Source: an uncultured bacterium
GTDB lineage: Bacteria; Bacillota_I; Bacilli_A; Acholeplasmatales; Anaeroplasmataceae
Direction of reading: 5' to 3'
Assembly (NCBI GenBank): GCA_949291115.1
Contig: CASETY010000009.1
Coordinates: 1-59,802 of the forward strand
DNA: 59,802 nt
Shown here: positions 1,391 through 23,837 of the stretch, in pieces
Position numbering within the stretch: the stretch's first letter is position 1
Layout of the letters: each line of letters opens with the position of its first letter
Made by a program: the position numbers and the translations under genes
Notes under the pieces: generated by a model
The model's database searches: none
The model's input: only the letters and a program-made list of their open reading frames with translations
What the model was told of the DNA's origin: nothing

Positions 1391-1953
1391 ATCATACACC
1401 TCCTTCTATAGTAATTTTCTAGTAATTAATATAATTTAAATGTTTTTCTTAACTAAAGGGTTAACGCTTTAATTTACTTTCTTTTATTATAACATTTTTT
1501 CTAAAAAAGTACTAAAATTTATTAATAAAAACTGGATAATATCAGGATTTTTGCAAAGGAAAAATACGTCTATTGTATTTATTAGCCGATTTGTACATTC
1601 TTATTTTAGCGCTAACATATTGTTCATAATATGTTCTTTTATGACTATTTCTTTGAGTTTTGTGTCCTAGTAATTACGCATATAGAAACTAAAATTACAT
1701 AAATAACTTTAAAACCGCGTTAAAAGTCAGCAAACATAACGCGGTTTAATAGTTTTATATGATTTTTAAAATGATGTTAGATTTTTACTAACTGCTAAAA
1801 AAACCACTAACATATAGTGAACCCTTTATCTAGTCATTTTTAGGAGTATGCACGGACAACCCTACCATTTTTAATGTAAAAATAGCAGTTCTATAAAAAA
1901 GAGCCAAAACTAGAAATTATCTAGGAATGGCGCTCTTTTTTCGACTTTTAAAA
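1391..1953. other. Intergenic region with promoter, hairpin, terminator and possible gene relic
   Basis: The minus strand has a TATAAT at 1486-1491, a likely -10 for the helicase remnant. A 10-bp inverted repeat AAACCGCGTT/AACGCGGTTT lies at 1712-1747. The rlmD terminator is at 1895-1941. On the minus strand, about 1557-1667 reads as an open stretch LLGHKTQRNSHKRTYYEQ and onward to a stop, faintly like the C-terminal LGH...Y region of a tyrosine recombinase, directly preceded by an in-frame TAA. No intact gene is visible. Confidence 0.4.
1895..1941 (-). terminator. Terminator downstream of rlmD
   Basis: AAAAAAGAGC at 1895-1904 pairs with GCTCTTTTTT at 1932-1941, and an extra CA/TG pairing lies inside. 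Read on the minus strand the hairpin ends in a U-tract just after the rlmD stop codon. It is symmetrical enough to work in both directions. Confidence 0.75.
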
Positions 1954-3297
1954 TCACTTTTTTAGATCTAGTAATGTGACTGATTCAATATGACTAGTAT
2001 TAGGGAACATATCGATTGGTTGAATATATCTAATTTGATATTTAGTTGTTAGAAGGTCTAAGTCTTTAGCTAGTGTTGATGGATTACATGATACATAGAC
2101 TATTCTTCTAGCGTTACTGTCTAAAATCATATCAATTAATTCTTTAGTTAAACCAGTTCTTGGTGGATCAAATACTAAAACATCAAAATGACCATCTTTA
2201 ATTAATTCTTTATAGACTTTAGCTGTATCACCTTGTTTAAAAGTAACATTTTTAATTTTATTAATCTTAGCATTCTCATTCGCAGCTTTTACTGATTCTT
2301 TATTATATTCAATACCCACTACTTCTTTAGCTAAATTAGAAATATATAAAGAAATAGTTCCTATTCCACAATAAGCATCTAAAACTCTTTCTTGATGACT
2401 TAATTTACAAGCTTTTTTAGTTTCTTCATAAAGCTTTTCCGTTTGATTGGTGTTTAATTGGAAGAATGTGCTAGGGAATAGTTTAAATTTATATTTACAT
2501 ATTTCTTCTACTATATATTTTTCTCCACCAATAAACAAGGATTCTCCTTTAATTATTTCATTACTTTTTAAATCTGGATTTATATTAACATATAATGAAT
2601 CACATAAATTTTTAGCGACTATTGAATAACTAAATTTTTTGATTTCTTCATTAAATTCTTTAACCACTAAGCATACTAAACTTTTTCTTGTTGATTTAGT
2701 TACTCTTGTGACAATATATCTTAAAGAGAAATCATCATTAGGGTAGGCTTTTATCTTTAATTCTGTTCCTAATTTTAATATTTTAGAATTAACTTCATGT
2801 ATTAAAGAATCTTCAATTTTGCATTTATCAACCGCAAAAGACTTATTAGTTCCTTCTTCAATCATAGCGGTTGTTAAAATTCCTTTATCACTTCTTACAA
2901 TTAAAGAAGCCTTATTACGATAATTAAATATTTCATCACTGGCAATTGTCTTTTTTATTTCAAAGCTTAAAGGATTAAGCTTAGTATATCTTCTAATAGC
3001 TTCAATTACTAAATCTCTTTTTAATTCTAAAGTTCTTTGATATTTAATGTGCATTGTTTGACAAGCACCACAACGTTCGTAATATTTGCAAGCAGGTTCT
3101 ACTCTATCTTTAGATAACTTCTTAAACTCAACGATTTCGGCAATATCCATTTTTGGCATTTCTTTTATTATTCTAACATTTATACCTTCACCAGGAATAG
3201 CGTTTTTTACAAAAACAGCTTTACGGTTATAATAACCAATTCCTTCACCATTAATACCGAGGCGCTTTATATCTAATATAAATTCTTTATTCTGCAT
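1954..3297 (-). CDS. rlmD: 23S rRNA (uracil-5-)-methyltransferase, RlmD/RlmCD type
   Basis: A SAM-dependent methyltransferase that makes 5-methyluridine in 23S rRNA. The 447 residues fit the family. An N-terminal TRAM RNA-binding domain (about 1-60) is followed by the Fe-S cluster cysteines in CKYYERCGACQTMH (about 70-85). The SAM-binding fold contains DAYCGIGTISLY, and the catalytic region contains FDPPRTG and VSCNPSTLA, which carries the nucleophilic cysteine. The ATG has a GAGGGG Shine-Dalgarno sequence. Its start overlaps the end of the GH43 gene by about 11 bases, so the two are translationally coupled, although no functional link is obvious. The exact target uridine (747, 1939 or both) cannot be read from sequence. 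Confidence 0.93.
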   Translation of the reverse strand: MQNKEFILDIKRLGINGEGIGYYNRKAVFVKNAIPGEGINVRIIKEMPKMDIAEIVEFKKLSKDRVEPACKYYERCGACQTMHIKYQRTLELKRDLVIEAIRRYTKLNPLSFEIKKTIASDEIFNYRNKASLIVRSDKGILTTAMIEEGTNKSFAVDKCKIEDSLIHEVNSKILKLGTELKIKAYPNDDFSLRYIVTRVTKSTRKSLVCLVVKEFNEEIKKFSYSIVAKNLCDSLYVNINPDLKSNEIIKGESLFIGGEKYIVEEICKYKFKLFPSTFFQLNTNQTEKLYEETKKACKLSHQERVLDAYCGIGTISLYISNLAKEVVGIEYNKESVKAANENAKINKIKNVTFKQGDTAKVYKELIKDGHFDVLVFDPPRTGLTKELIDMILDSNARRIVYVSCNPSTLAKDLDLLTTKYQIRYIQPIDMFPNTSHIESVTLLDLKK

Positions 3298-4753
3298 CTA
3301 ATCCCCTCACCTTAAAGTATTTAAATAAAGCATAATTATTAGTATATCCTCTTGCGAAAAGGCCAAGACGACCGCCAACCCAGTCACCTTTAGTGGCTTT
3401 AAATTTAGTTTTAAAATATTGGTTATTAATACCTAATTGATAATAACCAGGATATCTAAATTTCATTTTTAGATTAATAATATTAGAATTGTAGTCTACT
3501 TCTTCTATAATTTCATCAGCAGTCTTACTACTGCCTTTTACTAATAATATTTTATAGTTTTCTAAAGTTTTTCTAACAATCAAACCATAATATTCCAAGC
3601 CTAAATAAGTAAAGCCAGCTTCTTCATTTACACTTAAATTAGTTAAATCTAATTTAACATCTACATTAAAATTATAATAACCAACTTTTTGGCTTAATAT
3701 ATGTGGTAAGTCTTTTAAATCTTTTATATCATTATACTTAAGTCTTAAATATAAACCATTATCAACATAATAATCTAAAGGCACTTTATTGGCTGGTGTT
3801 TGAAAACTTAGATTTAATTTTTTCTTAAAATTATCACTTAAACTAATTTTGTAATTAGATTCTTTATTAATAATGTATTCATTTTCAGCCACTGGTTCAC
3901 CAAATAATAACGGATCACTAACATGACCAATAATTGGCCAATCATTATGCCACATTACATTTTCTAAATAAGTAACCCTTCCATAACATTCTTGGTCAAC
4001 GAAGTGAATGAATGCCCAGTTATCATTATCATCTATATCAATTAAAGCACCTTGATGTGGGCCATTAATTTCAGTATGACCTTGCGCTAAAACTATTTTT
4101 GTTTCATAAGGCCCATATATATTTTTACTTCTTAAAGCTGTTTGCCACCCTGTTTTTACCCCGCCAGCAGGCGCCATTATATAAAAATAACCATTACGAT
4201 AATTAAATTTAGGGCCTTCAATCGTTGGATTATCATTATGACCATCATAAATAACCGTTGAATCTGTTAACTGGATAGTTAATTTTTCATCACATTCAAT
4301 AATACCTAGTTTAGAATTAAAACCACATCTAGACTTTACATAACCATGAACAACATAACATTTACCATTTAGCCAAATAGGACATGGATCTTCTAGGCCA
4401 ACACCGGGAACAACTAATCTTAAAGGGCTCCACTTACCATATGGATCTTTAGTTTCTGAAACAAAAAGTCCTTCATCAGGAGTAGGAATCATTACATAGA
4501 AAGTGCCTTCATGATATCTTATAGAAGGTGCCCAAGCGCCATGGCCTCTTCTTACTTCATTATATTTAGGCAGAGGAAAAGCGTCATACACATAATTAAT
4601 AAGGCGCCAATTTACTAAATTTTTAGAATGTAAAACTGGTAATCCTGGCATATAATTAAATGATGAAGCTACCATATAAAAGTCATCACCAACTCTAATG
4701 GCATCTGGATCAGAAAAATCTTGTAAAATTACGGGATTTTTATATTTAAGCAT
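3287..4753 (-). CDS. Glycoside hydrolase family 43 beta-xylosidase/alpha-L-arabinofuranosidase
   Basis: A five-bladed beta-propeller glycosidase acting on xylan or arabinan side chains. The 488 residues have an N-terminal GH43 propeller (about 1-300) and a C-terminal beta-sandwich of the GH43_C2 type (about 310-485). The expected acidic triad is visible: general base Asp15 in FSDPDAIR, pKa modulator Asp122 in GLEDPCPIW, and general acid Glu179 in IEGPKF. No signal peptide is present, so it probably hydrolyses imported oligosaccharides in the cytoplasm. An AGGAG Shine-Dalgarno precedes the ATG, and an extended -10 (TGCTATAAT, 4786-4794) lies upstream. Substrate specificity within GH43 cannot be fixed. 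It is the first gene of a two-gene unit with rlmD. Confidence 0.88.
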   Translation of the reverse strand: MLKYKNPVILQDFSDPDAIRVGDDFYMVASSFNYMPGLPVLHSKNLVNWRLINYVYDAFPLPKYNEVRRGHGAWAPSIRYHEGTFYVMIPTPDEGLFVSETKDPYGKWSPLRLVVPGVGLEDPCPIWLNGKCYVVHGYVKSRCGFNSKLGIIECDEKLTIQLTDSTVIYDGHNDNPTIEGPKFNYRNGYFYIMAPAGGVKTGWQTALRSKNIYGPYETKIVLAQGHTEINGPHQGALIDIDDNDNWAFIHFVDQECYGRVTYLENVMWHNDWPIIGHVSDPLLFGEPVAENEYIINKESNYKISLSDNFKKKLNLSFQTPANKVPLDYYVDNGLYLRLKYNDIKDLKDLPHILSQKVGYYNFNVDVKLDLTNLSVNEEAGFTYLGLEYYGLIVRKTLENYKILLVKGSSKTADEIIEEVDYNSNIINLKMKFRYPGYYQLGINNQYFKTKFKATKGDWVGGRLGLFARGYTNNYALFKYFKVRGLDAE

Positions 4754-4924
4754 CTTAATTACCTTCTCCTTTTAAAATCTAGCTAATTATAGCATTTTTA
4801 ATGTTGAAAAAATAGTTCCCAATTCAATTTTAGTACTTCCCCACAATTTTTCTAATTTTATACTTGATTATTAGTTTAAAAAGTAATAAAATATAAAAGC
4901 ACGACAGAAAGAATAAAAAAACTC

Positions 4925-4953
4925 TTGCACTAGGAGCTCGTTTATGATATCAT
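4925..4953 (+). promoter_or_regulatory. Promoter of the tRNA cluster
   Basis: TTGCAC (4925-4930), a 17-base spacer and TATCAT (4948-4953) make a good sigma-A promoter ending 11 bases before the first tRNA. No other promoter-like sequence separates the four tRNA genes, so they are probably one transcript. Confidence 0.7.
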
Positions 4954-4964
4954 ATCTAAGCTGT

Positions 4965-5041
4965 GGTTCAGTAGTGTAGTTGGTTAACATGTCAGTCTGT
5001 CACACTGGAGATCGCGGGTTCGAGTCCCGTCTGAACCGCCA
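4965..5041 (+). tRNA. tRNA-Asp (GTC)
   Basis: Full cloverleaf: acceptor GGTTCAG pairs with CTGAACC, the anticodon loop is CTGTCAC, and the T loop is in GGGTTCGAGTCCC. The 3' CCA is encoded in the DNA. First gene of a four-tRNA cluster. Confidence 0.96.
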
Positions 5042-5047
5042 TTTATT

Positions 5048-5124
5048 GCGCTCGTAGCTCAACTGGATAGAGCGTTTGACTACGGATCAAGAGGTTAGGG
5101 GTTCAAGTCCTCTCGGGCGCGCCA
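5048..5124 (+). tRNA. tRNA-Arg (ACG)
   Basis: Acceptor GCGCTCG pairs with CGGGCGC (one G-U). Anticodon loop CTACGGA gives ACG, normally edited to ICG by TadA. CCA is encoded. Confidence 0.96.
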
Positions 5125-5144
5125 TTAATATTATTAATTAAAGT

Positions 5145-5221
5145 CGGGAAATAGCTCAGTTTGGTAGAGCGCCTGGTTTGGGACCAGGATGTCGCGGGTT
5201 CAAATCCTGTTTTCCCGACCA
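5145..5221 (+). tRNA. tRNA-Pro (TGG)
   Basis: Acceptor CGGGAAA pairs with TTTCCCG. Anticodon stem CCTGG/CCAGG encloses the loop TTTGGGA (TGG). CCA is encoded. Confidence 0.96.
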
Positions 5222-5225
5222 TTTT

Positions 5226-5299
5226 GCAGGTGTAGTTCAATGGTAGAACTTTAGCCTTCCAAGCTAACTACGTGAGTTCGATTCTCATCACCTGCTCCA
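5226..5299 (+). tRNA. tRNA-Gly (TCC)
   Basis: Acceptor GCAGGTG pairs with CACCTGC. Anticodon stem TTAGC/GCTAA encloses the loop CTTCCAA (TCC). CCA is encoded. Last gene of the cluster. Confidence 0.96.
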
Positions 5300-5310
5300 A
5301 AATGAACCTT

Positions 5311-5350
5311 AATGTCTGTTCTTTCTGAGTGAACAGGCATTTTTTATTTT
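5311..5350 (+). terminator. Terminator of the tRNA cluster
   Basis: AATGTCTGTTC pairs with GAACAGGCATT around a nine-base loop, followed by a T-rich tract. Confidence 0.85.
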
Positions 5351-5357
5351 ATAAAAA

Positions 5358-5386
5358 TTGTCTTTTTTGACTGACTGGTATATAAT
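5358..5386 (+). promoter_or_regulatory. Promoter of the DUF2238-like gene
   Basis: TTGTCT (5358-5363), a 17-base spacer and TATAAT (5381-5386) lie 18 bases before the ATG. Confidence 0.65.
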
Positions 5387-5404
5387 TAACCACAGGTGAT
5401 TTAG

Positions 5405-6022
5405 ATGAAACGATATAGTGTGTTTATTTTTAGTATCCTATTTATAATCATTGTAGATACAATTTATTTAACAACTTATGAGATTAAACCTATGTATTTA
5501 GTAGCTACTACTTCTTTATGTTTAATTCCTATTTTATTTAAGGTATTAAATAAATATCTTAAATTAAATTTATCTTTATTATTAGAATTTAGTGTAACCT
5601 TACATGCACTTTTTAGTTATGGTTTAGGCACAATGCTAGATGTTTATCATATGTTAAGTTTTTGGGACTTATTAATGCACTTCTATTTTGGTGTTAATAT
5701 GATATTTATCTTAATTGATTTAAGTAAATTTGTTGATTTTAAAACCAATAAAGTTATTTATTATATAATTTTAGTTATTTTAACACTTGGTGTAGCTAGT
5801 ATTTGGGAAATTATCGAATACACATCTGATAATTTATTTGGCCTAGACATGCAAAGAGTTAATGAATCTTTAGCTAATGGCATTAATCCAATTAAAGATA
5901 CAATGGATGATGTAATCATTGCAATACCAGGGGCAATTTTAGGTATTATTATTAATGAAATCAAGCTTAAGTATTGTTCAAGTCCCCTAAATAATTTTAA
6001 TGAAAAAAAAGAAATCAATTAA
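5405..6022 (+). CDS. Polytopic membrane protein, DUF2238/YjdF-like
   Basis: A 205-residue integral membrane protein with about six hydrophobic spans and a short basic C-terminus. A cluster of polar residues fits the DUF2238 (YjdF-like) family: FWDLLMHFYFG near 85-95, WEIIEYTSD near 139-147, then GLDMQR and DTMDD in the loop before the last span. The function of this family is not established. The conserved acidic residues and histidine facing the membrane suggest metal or substrate binding, but this is inference. It has its own promoter and terminator, so it is a single-gene unit between the tRNA cluster and the lipoprotein. AGGTGAT precedes the ATG. Confidence 0.7.
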   Translation: MKRYSVFIFSILFIIIVDTIYLTTYEIKPMYLVATTSLCLIPILFKVLNKYLKLNLSLLLEFSVTLHALFSYGLGTMLDVYHMLSFWDLLMHFYFGVNMIFILIDLSKFVDFKTNKVIYYIILVILTLGVASIWEIIEYTSDNLFGLDMQRVNESLANGINPIKDTMDDVIIAIPGAILGIIINEIKLKYCSSPLNNFNEKKEIN

Positions 6023-6048
6023 AATCTCACAAAAAAGTGAGATTTTTT
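6021..6048 (+). terminator. Terminator of the DUF2238-like gene
   Basis: AAAATCTCAC and GTGAGATTTT form a perfect stem around six A, followed by T residues. Confidence 0.88.
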
Positions 6049-6111
6049 TATTTTTTTGTGAATATTTTGTCATTTTAATTGTCTTAATTAATAGAAAGAG
6101 AGGAAAAAATT

Positions 6112-9051
6112 ATGAAAAAAATAATTTTAGGCGGAGTTGCACTAGCTAGCTTAGCTATTGGCCTCACATCATGTGCTGACAATGATGTTGTAATTTCAAC
6201 TCCACAAGTACAAGAAACCGCTTATGCGACTTATGAATGGAATGCCATAAGCGACGTTACTTCTTATTATCTAAGTTTAGATGGTACTGAAACAAATATC
6301 GGTAAATTAAGTGTAGCTACATTAACTAATACCGTTACTTATGAAGTACCAACCACCGACTTAAGTGTTGGTGTCCACAAAGTTAAATTCTGTGCAGCCG
6401 TAGACGACAATCGTTCTGCTTGGTCTAAAGAATTTAATTTAATTGTCAGAGAAACAGATGTTACCCTTTCAATGTATGGTGACAACACATTTGACATCAC
6501 AACTACTTCAGATGTAGTTGATCTAGAATTCAAACACGTTGATGGTTCAACTGTAACAGCTAGATGGTTTAATGATGGTGACTCTGTTAACATCGATGAT
6601 CTTCTTTACAATTTTAATGAAGATTATAATACTTATTCTGATTCTTCTGTTTTAAAAGCCGGTACTTATACTGTTGTGGCTAAAGTTACGGAAGGTGAAA
6701 ATGTTGTTGAAAGTAATCCAGTAGTCGTAACAGTTGCAGATTATGTTGAAAATGTAACAGTAAGTTTAGATGGTGCTAATGATAGTTTAATTGTTAACTT
6801 TAGTGAAGAACTAGCAAACGTAAGATACAATGTCTACTATGATGATGAATTAGTTAATGAAAATGAATATCAAAGTGGTCTAAATGATTCAGTTTATGTA
6901 TCTATTGATGGTTATAAAATATATGAAATAGTTAATGAGACTGGCAAATTACCTACTGTTAGAGTTCAAGTTTTAGAAGCTAGCAATTTAAAGAACTTAC
7001 CTGCTGATGTTACTGCCGATTTTGCTTACTTATTCCCAGAAATAGCTCTTTCATTTGAAACATTAGCTAGTCTACCACCTGAAGAAATCGCTCAAAACTT
7101 TAGAACATCTTATTCAAATGGTGTCTTTAGAGTTCAAAATGACAGCGGTTTACCTTTCTTACAAGGTGTAACTCTTACTGTTAATGGTGTTGAACAAAAA
7201 GTTACTGACAACAATAATGCCTATACTTCTAATGTATACTTACAAGAAGGAACTAATAACATTGAATGTATTGCCCATCTTTTAGTATTAGGTAAAACTT
7301 ATGACGTTTCAATTTACTCAAGCGTTGTAGAAGCTAATAATAAACTTACACTAAGTGTTAGCGAAGGTACATTAAAATGGACATATAGTTCTAATCCATA
7401 TCCAGATTATTATGTTGTTAATATTTATGATAATGGTGCTTTAGCATCTACTCACAAAGTTATATTTGAAAATGAATTAGCAGTCTTCGATTTAATAAAA
7501 GGTTTAGAAAATCCAACAGCTGTAGTTACTGCTTACTATGAAAATGACAGTGTTTATGCAGTAAGTAATGAAGTTGAACTTAGAACAATGGAATGTGAAG
7601 TTAAATTAGAAACAGAATTTAGTTCTAATGGTTTATTACGACTTACTGGCATCGCTGGTAGTTCATATAACTATAGTGTTTCAGCTTATAATCACAATAC
7701 GGGTGAATATGAAGGAATATTAACAATCAATAACAATCTTGATGACTACTATATTGATTTAAATACCTTAGGTTATGGTAACTATGATATTAAAGTTATT
7801 AGACGTGGTGGTAATTCATTCTTATCTGGTTCAAAAGTATTCAATGTTGAATACCTTCCAGCACCAACATATAAAGTAGCTAATGACAAGATTGTCTTAG
7901 ATGATCCTACCGGTTTATATGTTTTATATGGCTCTTCTAGTTATAAAAAAGTAGAAAGTTCTAATTACTTTGATTCAGAAACTAATGAATTTTCTTTATT
8001 ATCTTTATTAGATGAAGATAATTATAGTACTTGTACTTTATATAAAGAAGCTGTTACAACACCTGAAAAGATAACTCTATATGCAACTAGAACTATCAAT
8101 CTAGAAAGACAAACAGCTCCTTCCTTCGGAGTGGTTGATAATGAGTATGATAAAGTTTACCTAAATGGTGGCACTGCTCCTACTCATGTTTATGAAATTA
8201 AAATTTATGATGATAAAAACAAACTTATTTCAAGCCAAGAAACTGACTCTTATTCTAAATATTATAATAGTAGTTATTACTATGGTGTAGATTTAGCTGC
8301 TTTAACTGAAGATGGTGTTTATACAATTAGCGCTAGAGAAAAAGGTTGGGACAATGTTTTTGCTAGTAAATGGAGAAGTGTAACTTATGTAAAAACTAGT
8401 GATGCAATTGAAATGGATATTTCATATGACTACAATGGCTATGGCATTGATACTCGTGTCTCTATAACAAGTAATTCTACAATTGATAATTTATTAAGTA
8501 CTTATTACACCTTAACATATTATAGAGAAACTAGTGGTGTAACTTTAGACCCTAAAGAAATCTATACTCTTGCTTATAATAATAATGATTCTAATTTACG
8601 GTATAGTGTTAGCTTAATGTTACCTAGCGACTATTATACTAATATGGATACTACTCTAAGTGGTACTTTCACAAAAACTGAAGTAGATGGTGATATTTAT
8701 TATAGTGTTGGTGCTCTAGATATGGATAATGTATTATTACCTTATTCATCAAATACATTGGGTTGTTTAGTAAATGAGCAATTTGTAACTGCTGCTAATG
8801 ATGATGTAATTACAGTTACTTTAAATGGTACTGTTGACAATCTTAAATTTGAATCTGACAACTTTAGAACAACATCTAGTTCATATGTTACTATAGATGA
8901 AGTATTAGTACCTAAAGGTGTAAATGTTAAAGCTTATTTAGAAGAACATTTGGTATTCTTTGATACTGATGTAGAATGGACATTTAGTTCAGAAGCTGAT
9001 GTTACTGCCGAAGTTGACTTAACAGTTGACATAGTTAGTAAAACAGCTTAA
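6112..9051 (+). CDS. Large surface lipoprotein with repeated Ig/FN3-like domains
   Basis: A secreted lipoprotein of 979 residues. The signal peptide ends in the lipobox LTSC with Cys21 as the lipidation site. The rest is rich in Tyr, Asn, Ser, Asp and Val and looks like a chain of beta-sandwich modules. The first (about 35-115) resembles FN3 (TYEWNAISDVTSYYLSLDG, then VGVHKVKFCAAVDD), and similar phrases recur (TYTVVAKVTEGE near 185, YDIKVIRRGG, YTISAREKGW near 745). There is no catalytic motif and no wall-anchor motif. An adhesin or glycan-binding role is only a guess. AGAGG precedes the ATG. The start reads TTATGAAAAA, which matches the conserved small-RNA seed described in the findings. 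Confidence 0.75.
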   Translation: MKKIILGGVALASLAIGLTSCADNDVVISTPQVQETAYATYEWNAISDVTSYYLSLDGTETNIGKLSVATLTNTVTYEVPTTDLSVGVHKVKFCAAVDDNRSAWSKEFNLIVRETDVTLSMYGDNTFDITTTSDVVDLEFKHVDGSTVTARWFNDGDSVNIDDLLYNFNEDYNTYSDSSVLKAGTYTVVAKVTEGENVVESNPVVVTVADYVENVTVSLDGANDSLIVNFSEELANVRYNVYYDDELVNENEYQSGLNDSVYVSIDGYKIYEIVNETGKLPTVRVQVLEASNLKNLPADVTADFAYLFPEIALSFETLASLPPEEIAQNFRTSYSNGVFRVQNDSGLPFLQGVTLTVNGVEQKVTDNNNAYTSNVYLQEGTNNIECIAHLLVLGKTYDVSIYSSVVEANNKLTLSVSEGTLKWTYSSNPYPDYYVVNIYDNGALASTHKVIFENELAVFDLIKGLENPTAVVTAYYENDSVYAVSNEVELRTMECEVKLETEFSSNGLLRLTGIAGSSYNYSVSAYNHNTGEYEGILTINNNLDDYYIDLNTLGYGNYDIKVIRRGGNSFLSGSKVFNVEYLPAPTYKVANDKIVLDDPTGLYVLYGSSSYKKVESSNYFDSETNEFSLLSLLDEDNYSTCTLYKEAVTTPEKITLYATRTINLERQTAPSFGVVDNEYDKVYLNGGTAPTHVYEIKIYDDKNKLISSQETDSYSKYYNSSYYYGVDLAALTEDGVYTISAREKGWDNVFASKWRSVTYVKTSDAIEMDISYDYNGYGIDTRVSITSNSTIDNLLSTYYTLTYYRETSGVTLDPKEIYTLAYNNNDSNLRYSVSLMLPSDYYTNMDTTLSGTFTKTEVDGDIYYSVGALDMDNVLLPYSSNTLGCLVNEQFVTAANDDVITVTLNGTVDNLKFESDNFRTTSSSYVTIDEVLVPKGVNVKAYLEEHLVFFDTDVEWTFSSEADVTAEVDLTVDIVSKTA

Positions 9052-9078
9052 TTGATAGAATACCTCCTTTCTTAGACG

Positions 9079-9109
9079 GTTCCTAGATTAATTTCTAGGA
9101 ACTTTTTTT
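9079..9109 (+). terminator. Terminator of the lipoprotein gene
   Basis: GTTCCTAGA pairs with TCTAGGAAC around six bases, followed by seven T. Confidence 0.9.
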
Positions 9110-9111
9110 GT

Positions 9112-9140
9112 TTACTTTTTAATTAATATTAGTGTATAAT
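9112..9140 (+). promoter_or_regulatory. Promoter of the structured RNA at 9147
   Basis: TTACTT (9112-9117), a 17-base spacer and a perfect TATAAT (9135-9140) preceded by TG. The predicted start near 9147 coincides with the first base of the long closing stem. Confidence 0.65.
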
Positions 9141-9146
9141 TGGAGT

Positions 9147-9279
9147 GGTGAAAAGTTACAATCAATTGGTAAGGCACTTTGTGACCTTTTAAAATCGTAT
9201 ACAGCTTTGTCTGGTTATTCTACGAACTTTTCACCACCATAAAGAAAAATCAGCTAAGAGTTTTTGCTCCTAGCTTTTT
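9147..9279 (+). ncRNA. Candidate structured small RNA, three-way junction, unknown class
   Basis: About 130 bases, bounded by a promoter and a terminator and with no open reading frame. A 13-bp closing stem pairs GTGGTGAAAAGTT (near 9145-9157) with AACTTTTCACCAC (near 9225-9238). Inside are two hairpins. The first is AAGGCAC, TTT, GTGACCTT with one bulge. The second has an outer stem TCGTA/TACGA and an inner ACAG/CTG stem capped by CTTTGT. A terminator hairpin (AGCTAAGAG...CTCCTAGCT plus T) follows at 9252-9279. No gene lies downstream on this strand, so it is not a leader. It does not match the 6S, SRP, RNase P or tmRNA patterns I know. The 3' ACCA after the stem is tRNA-like, but no D, anticodon or T arms can be drawn. 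Confidence 0.6.
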
Positions 9280-9295
9280 CAACTATTTATAGGCA

Positions 9296-9321
9296 TAAAA
9301 AAAACTGAGCTTTAACTCAGT
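9296..9321 (-). terminator. Terminator of the fabK-fabZ operon
   Basis: ACTGAG (9304-9309) pairs with CTCAGT (9316-9321). On the minus strand it is followed by a run of T directly after the fabZ stop. Confidence 0.85.
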
Positions 9322-9323
9322 CT

Positions 9324-9746
9324 TTAAAATACAGTACAGGTAATTTCTCCTTTAGCGACCACTTTACTATCTACTTTAGCTATTACTTCCGCAAAATAAA
9401 AATTTAATTTTTGTTTAGTAAAAGTGGCTTCTAATTCAATTTTTTGATTAGGTAATACTTGACCTTTAAAACGAAATTTATCAATAGATGTAAATAATAC
9501 TTTTTTACCTTTATTTTGGGGCATACTGAGTAATAATACACAAGCATTTTGAGCCAATGCTTCAATTACTAAAACGCCTGGCATAACTTTATAACCAGGA
9601 AAATGACCATCTAAAAAATGGGCATTTTCTTTTAAGTAATAACTGCCTTTAACTACTTTATCATCCATATAATTAATTTCATCCACAAATAAAAATGGTT
9701 CTCTTTGGGGAATTATTTCTTTAATTTGTTCTTTATTTAGTATCAT
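9324..9746 (-). CDS. fabZ: (3R)-hydroxyacyl-ACP dehydratase FabZ
   Basis: A hot-dog-fold dehydratase that removes water from 3-hydroxyacyl-ACP in type II fatty acid synthesis. The 140 residues are the normal length. The catalytic histidine is in DGHFPGYKVMPGV (about 48-60) and the catalytic glutamate in VIEALAQNA. The N-terminal substrate-loop sequence IIPQREPFLFVDEI is also typical. The ATG overlaps the TGA stop of fabK (ATGA), so the two elongation-cycle enzymes are translationally coupled. It is the last gene of the unit and is followed by a terminator. Confidence 0.95.
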   Translation of the reverse strand: MILNKEQIKEIIPQREPFLFVDEINYMDDKVVKGSYYLKENAHFLDGHFPGYKVMPGVLVIEALAQNACVLLLSMPQNKGKKVLFTSIDKFRFKGQVLPNQKIELEATFTKQKLNFYFAEVIAKVDSKVVAKGEITCTVF

Positions 9747-16999: not shown

Positions 17000-17205
17000 T
17001 CCATAAAAAAAATCCCTAAGTTTAAACTTAAGGACGAAAATTTCCGTGGTACCACCTTTATTCTAGAATAATTCTAGCACTCATTTTGGTTAAAAATCTC
17101 CCCAAGTGTATTTCAAATAAATAACTTTGTTCATTTCCACCAACCATGAACTCTCTATATAGTAAGTAATTTATTTTACTATGCTTGTTTCATCAATTTA
17201 TTACT
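17000..17205 (-). promoter_or_regulatory. T-box riboswitch leader of tyrS
   Basis: The conserved T-box AAGGTGGTACCACGG lies at about 17044-17058 (minus strand), followed by the terminator TCCTTAAGT/ACTTAGGGA with eight T (about 17003-17033). Upstream are an AGAGAG element and a GTTCAT...ATGAAC hairpin enclosing GGTTGGTGGAAA. The specifier region near the 5' end contains UAC and UAU triplets (both Tyr), but the exact specifier cannot be fixed by eye. The 5' domain looks compact. Confidence 0.88.
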
Positions 17206-18822: not shown

Positions 18823-18872
18823 TCATTTTTTTTGGTTGATTTTTAAAATTAAGCTAAAAATAATTTAAGACA

Positions 18873-18942
18873 ATTTCCCATAATTTTTAGATAATTAATT
18901 GGATATTTTATATTATTATATACGTGTCTTCAAAAGAAGACA
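18873..18942 (+). repeat. Direct repeat, copy 1 (promoter and 5' hairpin of small RNA A)
   Basis: About 70 bases from AATTTCCCATAATTTTTAG through GTCTTCAAAAGAAGAC that recur at 19202-19271 with a single visible difference (A to G after CCCAT). The repeat covers the upstream box, the promoter and the first hairpin, and stops where the RNA bodies diverge. Confidence 0.9.
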
Positions 18943-19037
18943 TAAGGTTTTACCCTTATACAATAATTATCTTTTTCATAAACAAATTATAACTCTCCCT
19001 AAGAATAAGGACTGGCTAAGCCGGTCCTTATTCATTT
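18926..19037 (+). ncRNA. Candidate small regulatory RNA A (first of tandem family)
   Basis: Predicted to start at the first base of GTCTTCAAAAGAAGAC, a perfect six-pair hairpin. The -10 is TATTAT (18914-18919); no good -35 is present, and TTTCCC lies 52 bases upstream of the start. A second hairpin ATAAGG/CCTTAT follows. Then comes an unpaired stretch with TTTTTCATAA (complementary to TTATGAAAAA) and CTCTCCCTAAG (complementary to a Shine-Dalgarno). A long hairpin GAATAAGGAC/GTCCTTATTC (19003-19033) closes it, but its T-tract is weak. No ORF. Its neighbours B and C share the layout. Confidence 0.7.
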
Positions 19038-19096
19038 ACCATAATTTCCCATAATATTCTAATAATCTAATGAAAATTATTGATTACAATAATAAT

Positions 19097-19181
19097 GTCT
19101 TAAAAAAGACAACATTTTTTATAATATTCCAAACCCTTTTGTTTACTTTCCTATAGATAGTGCTTGTCACTATCTTTTTTT
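19097..19181 (+). ncRNA. Candidate small regulatory RNA B (tandem family)
   Basis: The same plan as A: TTTCCC exactly 52 bases upstream (19045), -10 TACAAT (19085-19090), and a 5' hairpin GTCTT/AAGAC at the predicted start. The body is diverged, with C-rich pieces (TTCCAAACCC and ACTTTCC). It lacks both the CUCCCU and UUUUUCAU elements, so it should have different targets. A strong terminator GATAGTG/CACTATC plus seven T ends it (19156-19181). Confidence 0.68.
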
Positions 19182-19201
19182 ATAATTTATATAATAATAT
19201 A

Positions 19202-19271
19202 ATTTCCCATAGTTTTTAGATAATTAATTGGATATTTTATATTATTATATACGTGTCTTCAAAAGAAGACA
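19202..19271 (+). repeat. Direct repeat, copy 2 (promoter and 5' hairpin of small RNA C)
   Basis: Second copy of the 70-base repeat at 18873-18942, with one base different. Distance between copies is 329 bases. Confidence 0.9.
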
Positions 19272-19368
19272 AAAAATCTCCCTAATTTATATAGATATCT
19301 TTTTCATAAACATTTATAACTCCCTAAAAATGGAAGGTGGCCTAGTTAAAGCCACCTTCTATTTTTTT
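19255..19368 (+). ncRNA. Candidate small regulatory RNA C (tandem family)
   Basis: Upstream box, -10 (TATTAT, 19243-19248) and 5' hairpin as in A. The body has two seed elements, TCTCCCTAA (19277-19285) and AACTCCCTAA (19317-19326), flanking TTTTTCATAAAC. The segment ATCTTTTTCATAAACA is shared with A. The terminator is GAAGGTGGC/GCCACCTTC with seven T (19333-19368); read backwards it also follows the GltD-like gene on the other strand. Confidence 0.72.
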
Positions 19369-21600: not shown

Positions 21601-22354
21601 CTTTCTTTAATATCTTATCTAAATCAAGTTTTAATTTTTTATCTAAAAATAAACAATCTGCAAAATATGCTTGATATATTAACATGATTAAACCATTATT
21701 ATAAGAATTAGCTAATTTTAAAAAAGGAGTTTGTAAAGGATTATAAACCATATCAAAGACTACCTTATTTGCTAAAGCTTCTTTAGTAAGTGGTGAAGAA
21801 TCATCTCCTTTTGTCCCAACTGGAGTCGCATTTATAACAAGGTCATATTCATGCTTTCTAACATTTAGATAGCTAATAACATTAGTGCCTTTTTTATTTC
21901 TACTAACAAATAAAATGTTTTTCGCACCCATATCTTTTAAAACATGAAAAGCTGTTTTACTAGCTCCCCCAGTCCCTAGTATTAATACATTCTTATTTAA
22001 AACTTCGATCTTATAATACTCTAAAGCTAATTTAAAACCAATATAATCGGTGTTATAACCATATAATTTATCATTTTTTACACAAATAGTATTAACATTA
22101 CCAAGTTCTTTAGCTTTATCATCTAAATAATCAAGATATTTCAATACTTTTTCTTTATAAGGAATAGTTACATTTATACCACTATAATGAACTTTTAATT
22201 CTTTAAAAAAACTAACTAATTCATCTTCATTTTTCTCAATCAATTCATAATTTAAATTTAAATTATTCTCTTTATATATTTCTTCATGAATAACTTTTGA
22301 TAAAGAATAATCAAGTCTTTTACCAAGTAATCCTAATTTATTCATAATTTTCAC
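21581..22354 (-). CDS. aroE: Shikimate dehydrogenase
   Basis: NADPH-dependent reduction of 3-dehydroshikimate to shikimate. The 257 residues have the substrate domain (DYSLSKVIHEEIYKENNL), the catalytic lysine in NVTIPYKEKV near 84, the catalytic aspartate in YGYNTDYIGF near 121, and a Rossmann motif GTGGASKTAF near 145. The start is a GTG at 22354 with AAGGA eight bases upstream; an internal ATG three codons later is the alternative. It overlaps the aroA fusion gene by 17 bases. Confidence 0.93.
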   Translation of the reverse strand: MKIMNKLGLLGKRLDYSLSKVIHEEIYKENNLNLNYELIEKNEDELVSFFKELKVHYSGINVTIPYKEKVLKYLDYLDDKAKELGNVNTICVKNDKLYGYNTDYIGFKLALEYYKIEVLNKNVLILGTGGASKTAFHVLKDMGAKNILFVSRNKKGTNVISYLNVRKHEYDLVINATPVGTKGDDSSPLTKEALANKVVFDMVYNPLQTPFLKLANSYNNGLIMLIYQAYFADCLFLDKKLKLDLDKILKKVGAILE

Positions 22355-23837
22355 TTTGATATTCCTTACTGATTTTTAATAAAAATTCAATAAATTCTAA
22401 ATAATATTTAGACAATATTTCATCATTAAAATTAGTCATATTTCTTTCGATTACTTCTTTTTCTCTTTTTTCATCATATACTGGTAATTTATTTTTAATC
22501 TTATAATTTAAAACTTCTTTAATACATTTAAAACGCTTTAAAAAAGCTTCTTTTAATTCTAAATCAGCCTCATTAATTAATAAACGAGCACTATCTAAAC
22601 TAGAATAAACTAAACCACCCAAATCAGTAAATACAGAAACAAAATCAGGGAATGACTTATTAACAGGGCTATATTCATTAATATAATTAGTTTTAGTTAA
22701 AAGAGTACTAATAAAAGATGTCATAACTATTCTATGATCATTAAAAGTGTCAATGAAACCTTCTTTATAATTAGTAGTATGTTTAATAACCAAGCTTGCA
22801 TCTTCAATCCTAACATCAACGCCAATTTGTTTTAATAATTCATAGGTACTTAAAAGACGATTAGATTCTTTATAGGCTAAACGTTCTAAATCAATTAATC
22901 TGCTTTCACTTGGTAAAGTTGATAATAATAAGCCTAAGATAGGCGCTAAATCTGGGTTTTCTTTTAAAGAGAAACAAACACTTTTTAAATCTTTACGAAT
23001 TACTTTATAATCACTATTTAAATAAAAACCAGCTTGTTCCAAAAAATAAAGAATTTTTTCATCACCTTGTAAAGAAGGACGCTTTAAACCCTTTAACTTT
23101 AAATCTGCACCTAGACAATTAGCCACCAAGAAAAAAGCCGCTTGACTATAATCACCTTCAACAGTATATGAATTAATCTTAACCTTTTGCTTACCTTTAA
23201 TAAAATAACCACCATCTATTTCTTCTATTAAAATACCAAATTCTCTAGCCTCTTTAATTGTTATATCAACATATTGTTTACTTTCTAATTTAGTAGTAAG
23301 TAATACTTTTGAATCACCATCTAAGAAAGGCAAAACCATTAACAAACCAGAAATAAACTGACTAGATTTATCACCTTTTAAATGATAAGTGTTAGGCTCT
23401 AACTTACCTTTTATTTTTAGTGGTAATAGACCATCATATTCATACTTTATATTAAATTCTTTAAATAATTCAATATACGCATCAAGAGGTCTTTTCTTTA
23501 ATTCATTATGACCAGTTATACTAATTTCTTCATCTAAAAGTAACATTAAAGGGATCATAAAACGTAATGTTGAACCCGATTCATTCGCATCTAAATCACT
23601 TATTTTTTTAAATTTAGAAGGTATAACCGTAATTGAATCTTTTCTTTTAATAAAATTAATACCTAAGGATTCTAAACAATTTAAAGTAGCTTTAATATCT
23701 AAAGAATAATTAACATTATTAATCACAACATTATGTTCACTAAAAGAAGCTAAAATTAAAGCTCGGTGTAACACACTTTTAGAAGGCGGTATAACTACTT
23801 CACCTTTTAAATTATTCAATATCTCTATTTTATGCAT
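22338..23837 (-). CDS. aroA: EPSP synthase fused to AroQ-type chorismate mutase
   Basis: A 499-residue fusion. Residues about 1-412 are 3-phosphoshikimate 1-carboxyvinyltransferase: PPSKSVLHRALILASF (17-32), NESGSTLRFMIPL, KGDKSSQFISGLLMVLP, YKESNRLLSTYELLKQIG and FNDHRIVMTSF. Residues about 413-499 are a helical AroQ chorismate mutase: SSLDSARLLINEADLELKEA, KRFKCIKEVLNYKIKNKLPVYD and EKREKEVIERN. The first enzyme acts two steps before the second, with AroC between them. AroQ more often occurs alone or fused to DAHP synthase, prephenate dehydratase or prephenate dehydrogenase. The EPSP synthase has ESGSTLRF where many have GNAGTTMRP-like residues. It overlaps aroB by 13 bases. Confidence 0.88.
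   Translation of the reverse strand: MHKIEILNNLKGEVVIPPSKSVLHRALILASFSEHNVVINNVNYSLDIKATLNCLESLGINFIKRKDSITVIPSKFKKISDLDANESGSTLRFMIPLMLLLDEEISITGHNELKKRPLDAYIELFKEFNIKYEYDGLLPLKIKGKLEPNTYHLKGDKSSQFISGLLMVLPFLDGDSKVLLTTKLESKQYVDITIKEAREFGILIEEIDGGYFIKGKQKVKINSYTVEGDYSQAAFFLVANCLGADLKLKGLKRPSLQGDEKILYFLEQAGFYLNSDYKVIRKDLKSVCFSLKENPDLAPILGLLLSTLPSESRLIDLERLAYKESNRLLSTYELLKQIGVDVRIEDASLVIKHTTNYKEGFIDTFNDHRIVMTSFISTLLTKTNYINEYSPVNKSFPDFVSVFTDLGGLVYSSLDSARLLINEADLELKEAFLKRFKCIKEVLNYKIKNKLPVYDEKREKEVIERNMTNFNDEILSKYYLEFIEFLLKISKEYQSENYE

Follow-up and report, generated by a model that had tools for sequence, protein, structure and literature searches.

A conserved, previously undescribed small RNA family predicted in Anaeroplasmataceae, with putative control by a CssR-like two-component regulator

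In pneumococci, several small RNAs (csRNAs) that bind near start codons are placed under one OmpR-type regulator, that of the CiaRH system, whose promoter repeat is TTTAAG-N5-TTTAAG. The enterobacterial sRNAs MicA and RybB are SigmaE-dependent and cut the synthesis of exported proteins as part of the response to misfolded envelope proteins. In the CssRS system, the classic target of CssR is htrA. The canonical CssR box reads TTTTCACA (PMC6749698), and a search of open-licence papers turned up no sRNA described as part of a CssRS regulon. Listeria monocytogenes carries the multicopy, LisRK-dependent sRNA LhrC1-5, and UCCC displayed in loops or single strands is a known trait of Shine-Dalgarno-blocking sRNAs in low-GC bacteria (PMC4132741). 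No description of the RNA presented here, or of other sRNAs in Anaeroplasmataceae, was found in the literature, again limited to open-licence papers.

Here we analyse a 59,802-nucleotide stretch of DNA (the window) from an uncultured bacterium of the Anaeroplasmataceae, in which three tandem plus-strand units, A, B and C, are flanked by rplS and a convergent gltD-like gene (Table 1). The initial annotation of this DNA had taken the units for a duplicated, activator-dependent sRNA array following LhrC-like logic. This remains the best-supported reading, with box spacing now found conserved across genera, compensatory changes found in hairpin 1 and an activator that can be proposed. The geometry on which it rested was confirmed: in all three units TTTCCC (at 18874, 19045 and 19203) stands 52 nt before a GTCTT..AAGAC hairpin, a -10 element starts 12 nt upstream of that hairpin, and no -35 is recognisable. 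The combined pattern has only these 3 matches in the 1.13-Mb genome and 0 in the reversed control. Terminal hairpins are present throughout, and the predicted RNAs of A, B and C fold far more stably than shuffles (z of -7.6, -3.5 and -5.9). Units A and C do show a single difference over 70 bases, as annotated, but the accompanying claim that the bodies have diverged is only partly right. It is unit B, with promoter, hairpin 1 and terminator retained, that lacks the core and has probably lost its original function. Both A and C keep a core that was not recognised before and that is the most conserved part of the family to which they belong, so that only part of the family's scope had been seen. 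Hairpin 2 of unit A has diverged from the UCCC-loop hairpin of the family. We regard the window copies as diverged family members, of which A and C are probably still functional, their transcription being inferred.

Table 1. Positions of the array elements in the window, with the loci of boxless copies in relatives
Feature	Position or locus	Strand	Remark
Unit A promoter box, tandem ~10-bp repeat AGACAATTTCCCATAATTTTTAGATAAT, in place of -35	18868..18895	+	proposed CssR-like regulator site
Unit A -10 TATTAT	18914..18919	+	
Unit A hairpin 1 (GTCTTC..GAAGAC), proposed RNA 5' end	18926..18941	+	
Unit A hairpin 2 (ATAAGG..CCTTAT)	18942..18959	+	ACCC at loop/stem border
Unit A conserved single-stranded core CTTTTTCATAAACAAATTATAACTCTCCC	18971..18999	+	
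Unit A terminal hairpin	19003..19033	+	
Unit B promoter box	19039..19066	+	
Unit B -10 TACAAT	19085..19090	+	
Unit B hairpin 1, then body without core	19097..19110	+	
Unit B intrinsic terminator	19155..19182	+	
Unit C promoter box	19197..19224	+	
Unit C -10 TATTAT	19243..19248	+	
Unit C hairpin 1	19255..19270	+	
Unit C first C-rich motif ATCTCCCTAA, without surrounding hairpin 2	19277..19286	+	
Unit C conserved core CTTTTTCATAAACATTTATAACTCCC, 3' end shortened	19299..19324	+	
Unit C terminal hairpin and T-run	19326..19368	+	
Boxless copies downstream of ackA-like genes	L176, L179, L183, L185, L187, L189, L190, L193		

Elsewhere in the window, a T-box leader (RF00230, 103 bits; 17027-17202, minus strand) lies upstream of tyrS, and an aroA-like EPSP synthase ORF of 499 aa (22338-23837, minus strand) is extended at its C-terminus by a segment that resembles chorismate mutase, and may thus be a fusion within an aromatic-biosynthesis cluster.

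A search of the same genome with unit A returned A itself, C, and a site on contig C4 matching only the body of A. This fourth copy, directly upstream of genes for an OmpR-type response regulator and a histidine kinase, is of more canonical form than the window units, with an ordinary promoter (TTTACA-18-TATAAT), a 5' hairpin that is not that of the window units (GCTAG..CTAGC), UCUCCC in a hairpin loop, and CTTTTTCATAAGCAAACTATAACTCTCCC as its core. Because the core of A and C is common to the contig C4 copy and to about 80 copies in relatives, A and C retain the family core. The relatives' copies are often more regular, running from hairpin 1 through hairpin 2 (AUCUAUC..UCCC..GAUAGAU) and the core to the terminator.

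A covariance model detected the RNA in 47 of the 55 genomes from the window's family, and in 28 of the 31 of high quality, at 1-5 matches each; the remaining genomes of the order gave one weak match only, and the other genomes of the class sample none. The copies thus enumerated are alike but not near-identical, and share one hairpin at the 5' end, another whose loop carries UCCC, the near-invariant unpaired core CUUUUUCAUAAGCAAACUAUAACUCUCCC and a terminator whose loop varies between copies. Nearly all of the ~24 invariant columns in a 25-sequence alignment fall in the unpaired core. The model was built on a poor automatic structure of 4 pairs and detects through the core, and pairing changes were therefore counted separately by script in 67 units. 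Hairpin 1 occurs with 35 different stems, in which both sides of pairs 2-5 have changed (GCTAG/CTAGC, GTAATC/GATTAC and GTCCT/AGGAC among them), while hairpin 2 was found in 63 of the 67 with CCC in the loop in 55; these counts are rough, as the script picks the wrong stem in some units. A search of Rfam with cmscan for an already known family, LhrC included, gave no match for the array (E up to 5) or for five relatives (E up to 0.5). The family is previously undescribed and has no counterpart in Rfam, and we are all but certain that a conserved RNA family exists, with transcription inferred. In one genus member, four more copies with a common changed body, ATCTTTTCACAAAACTATAACTC, lie at 1700-9700 (L155, G001:C6) and are another locally diverging array. 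In one genus, core-bearing copies that follow ackA-like genes keep the hairpins and have no recognisable box or -35.

The shared box had been put forward as an activator site. Its conservation at a fixed distance supports this, although the site extends beyond TTTCCCATA: CssR-like TTTCMCA half-sites are directly repeated in it at 10 bp, and the window copies carry the variant TTTCCCAT. When upstream regions are aligned on GTCTT, the consensus reads T.ACATAATTTCMCATAATTTT.AGATAAT, followed by TATAMTA at -12, with half-sites recurring every 10-11 bp over the -35 region, as would be expected for an activator of the OmpR family. In 44 of 67 units the start of this longer motif lies at exactly 58 nt upstream of GTCTT; in two units it starts at 78, two helical turns farther, and a -35 is present again. 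Allowing up to 3 mismatches, the box precedes 45 of the 67 units against 14 of 2400 control windows, and a family-wide search gave 52 sites, where the reversed control had about 7. The half-site TTCMCANA is found before 47 of 67 units in the sense direction and before 1 of 67 in antisense. Box counts are slightly low, since the script anchored the hairpin wrongly in the G001:C6 units and scored them boxless although their boxes are visible. Against our preferred explanation, within the genus of the window some of the copies linked to the regulator have no box and an ordinary -35, and some copies beside ackA-like genes are likewise without a recognisable box.

The regulator adjoining the contig C4 copy, one of only three OmpR-type regulators in this genome, has orthologues at 61-74% identity in 51 genomes of the family, and 37 of these 51 orthologues are preceded by the RNA on their own strand, 35 of them at a distance of 29-104 nt. 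In a comparison of the regulator's DNA-binding domain with all solved structures, CssR was clearly nearest (95 bits, with ArlR next at 61), and the two share the nearly identical stretch DRVVDDL.RRLR.KM. A strict tandem site occurs at 13 of 30 htrA loci, 12 of 67 units and 1 of 1357 upstream regions of other genes (samples of seven genomes), an enrichment with Fisher p of about 1e-22 for htrA and 5e-16 for the units, although scan windows were unequal (400 nt for htrA, 150 nt for other genes); in the window's own genome the tandem before htrA is imperfect, CCCATAATTTTGACATAAT, which counts against the preferred explanation. Domain similarity, synteny and the site in common with htrA therefore identify the activator indirectly, and we consider it likely on these three grounds that the CssR-like regulator controls the sRNA genes, its binding and induction being inferred. 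The features in common with the CssRS regulon of Bacillus subtilis are a CssR-type DNA-binding domain, promoter sites resembling TTTTCACA, and a shared site before htrA, here in tandem form. CssR-like refers to the DNA-binding domain only, full-length orthology to Bacillus CssR not having been established by a tree. The envelope differs as well, in that Anaeroplasmataceae largely lack a typical wall. They are reputedly peptidoglycan-deficient. Mur genes are present in 40-60% of their genomes (PMC10868615), and the input to the kinase may therefore differ from that in Bacillus.

Box-like sites were also seen upstream of an ABC-transporter ATPase gene and a conserved membrane-protein gene (L222 in G068, L231 in G019, L232 in G015), and may mark further members of the regulon. 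At L215 (G062:C40 near 2505, minus strand) and L227 (G031:C64 near 7604), the same box, -10 and GTCTT start as in the family are joined to a different RNA, whose body starts GATAGAAAGGAGGC and GATAGAAAGGAGCC, respectively; it is purine-rich and complementary to UCCC, and is perhaps a second RNA of the putative regulon, even a sponge.

We propose that units A to C are copies of a trans-acting sRNA family of Anaeroplasmataceae. The CssR-like two-component regulator, encoded just downstream of another copy, would bind the tandem 10-bp direct repeats (ACATAAT-TTCMCATAAT-..GATAAT) that stand in for the -35 element, and would turn on the sRNA genes along with htrA in response to misfolded exported proteins or a block in export, both the binding and the signal being inferred. 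The C-rich loop of the second hairpin and the unpaired core, which ends in CUCUCCC ahead of the intrinsic terminator, may then pair with Shine-Dalgarno and start regions and stop translation initiation, a mechanism that is likewise inferred. The core is complementary to GGGAG...UUAUGAAAAAG, the start type found on Lys-rich signal-peptide genes. Conserved family, structure, box, regulator synteny and the box in common with htrA are computed results; every piece of evidence is computational and drawn largely from metagenome-assembled genomes, with transcript, binding and phenotype not demonstrated. We favour this reading as a whole, a CssR-like secretion-stress system activating multicopy sRNAs that block translation initiation, with moderate confidence.

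Its weakest step is a bias toward exported mRNAs, which is inferred only. The reverse complement of the core, GGGAGAGUUAUAGUUUGCUUAUGAAAAAG, resembles a ribosome-binding site followed by Met-Lys-Lys, and predicted duplex energies at exported minus cytosolic starts ranged from -0.6 to -1.7 kcal/mol across the first three genomes, against +0.5 to +0.9 for shuffled cores. In the first set, 1, 0, 2 and 0 of 60 shuffles paired at least comparably with exported starts. An independent set of four genomes gave a mean of -0.51 against +0.84 for shuffles (sd 0.40, pooled z -3.3). The bias is nevertheless rated low, because the effect is small, direct rank tests are mostly non-significant (p 0.03-0.66), gene starts and export classes were assigned by simple rules in samples of seven genomes, none of 67 orthologous groups stands out as a target (the five exported groups, too few, ranking no better than average), and a search for a long complement of the core showed none that is conserved (~38 non-self two-mismatch matches against ~33 in the reversed control). 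Antisense action is modestly favoured, the exported-protein bias is rather doubtful, and a strong form of the idea, in which the fixed core serves as a general-purpose antisense to Shine-Dalgarno plus AUG-AAA-AAG and silences signal-peptide and lipoprotein mRNAs as a class by their Lys-rich N-terminus code, is unlikely. Other places in the genome at which BLAST matched the core looked like antisense sites; the four inspected lie outside gene starts and are therefore probably chance. The same weak target results would suit regulator-controlled, multicopy UCCC-type sRNAs acting on a few specific mRNAs without any general link to signal peptides, the complementarity to AUGAAAAAG being a by-product of a U-rich core. 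The smallness of the pairing bias and the absence of a prominent orthologous exported target speak for this account, which we keep as a serious possibility without preferring it; it does not explain why same-composition shuffled cores pair worse than the core with exported starts, a difference whose direction is the same in all seven genome samples.

The core itself raises a different objection, as near-invariance over 29 nt exceeds what antisense pairing alone usually demands. Such a core, set among variable surroundings and without a conserved long complement in the genomes, could instead be a protein site, in an RNA acting mainly as a CsrB/Rsm-type or other sponge; the GGA motifs of CsrA-type sponges are absent from it, however, and C-rich motifs in a loop and in an unpaired segment suit the anti-Shine-Dalgarno sRNAs known from low-GC bacteria (PMC4132741), which leaves protein binding improbable as the main role. 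Synteny with the regulator gene might likewise mean that the RNA acts in cis on the regulator operon, as its leader or attenuator, with stray duplicates elsewhere. We think this very improbable: 44 of 81 matches lie elsewhere, beside many different genes that are often convergent, as they are in the window, with core and box conserved, and the leader copies themselves have a terminator, with a separate TATAAT before the regulator gene. Degenerate unit B and the local arrays of diverging copies in genus members are what non-functional repeats, such as mobile-element remnants, might leave, but compensatory hairpin changes, fixed promoter spacing and a core conserved across genera are hard to square with them. 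Small-peptide genes fare no better, as the longest ORF has a median of 6 codons and reaches at least 15 in only 4 of 54 units, and we give hardly any credence to either form of this explanation.

The antisense reading under CssR-like control places the family closest to LhrC1-5, which it resembles in being multicopy and ~110 nt long, in OmpR-type two-component control and envelope-related stress (both inferred here), and in UCCC motifs placed in a hairpin loop and in a single strand, both conserved here. It differs in lacking any sequence match to LhrC, in a third motif (that of the terminator loop) that is not conserved, in the 29-nt near-invariant core, and in usually having one copy beside the putative regulator, which is nearest CssR. 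The csRNAs offer the same inferred arrangement of several small RNAs under one OmpR-type regulator, but the box is not the CiaR repeat and Rfam gave no match. As an sRNA arm, the family would work like MicA and RybB, although sequence, regulator type and envelope are unrelated and its targets are only inferred.

If this holds, the secretion-stress response, known as a protease response, would gain an RNA arm in Anaeroplasmataceae comparable to the sigmaE sRNAs, and the sRNA may serve as a brake on protein synthesis when export fails. That one sRNA might silence exported proteins class-wide through an AUG-AAA-AAG start would be a directly testable idea. The family also supplies a marker RNA and a promoter site for reading out stress in uncultured gut bacteria.
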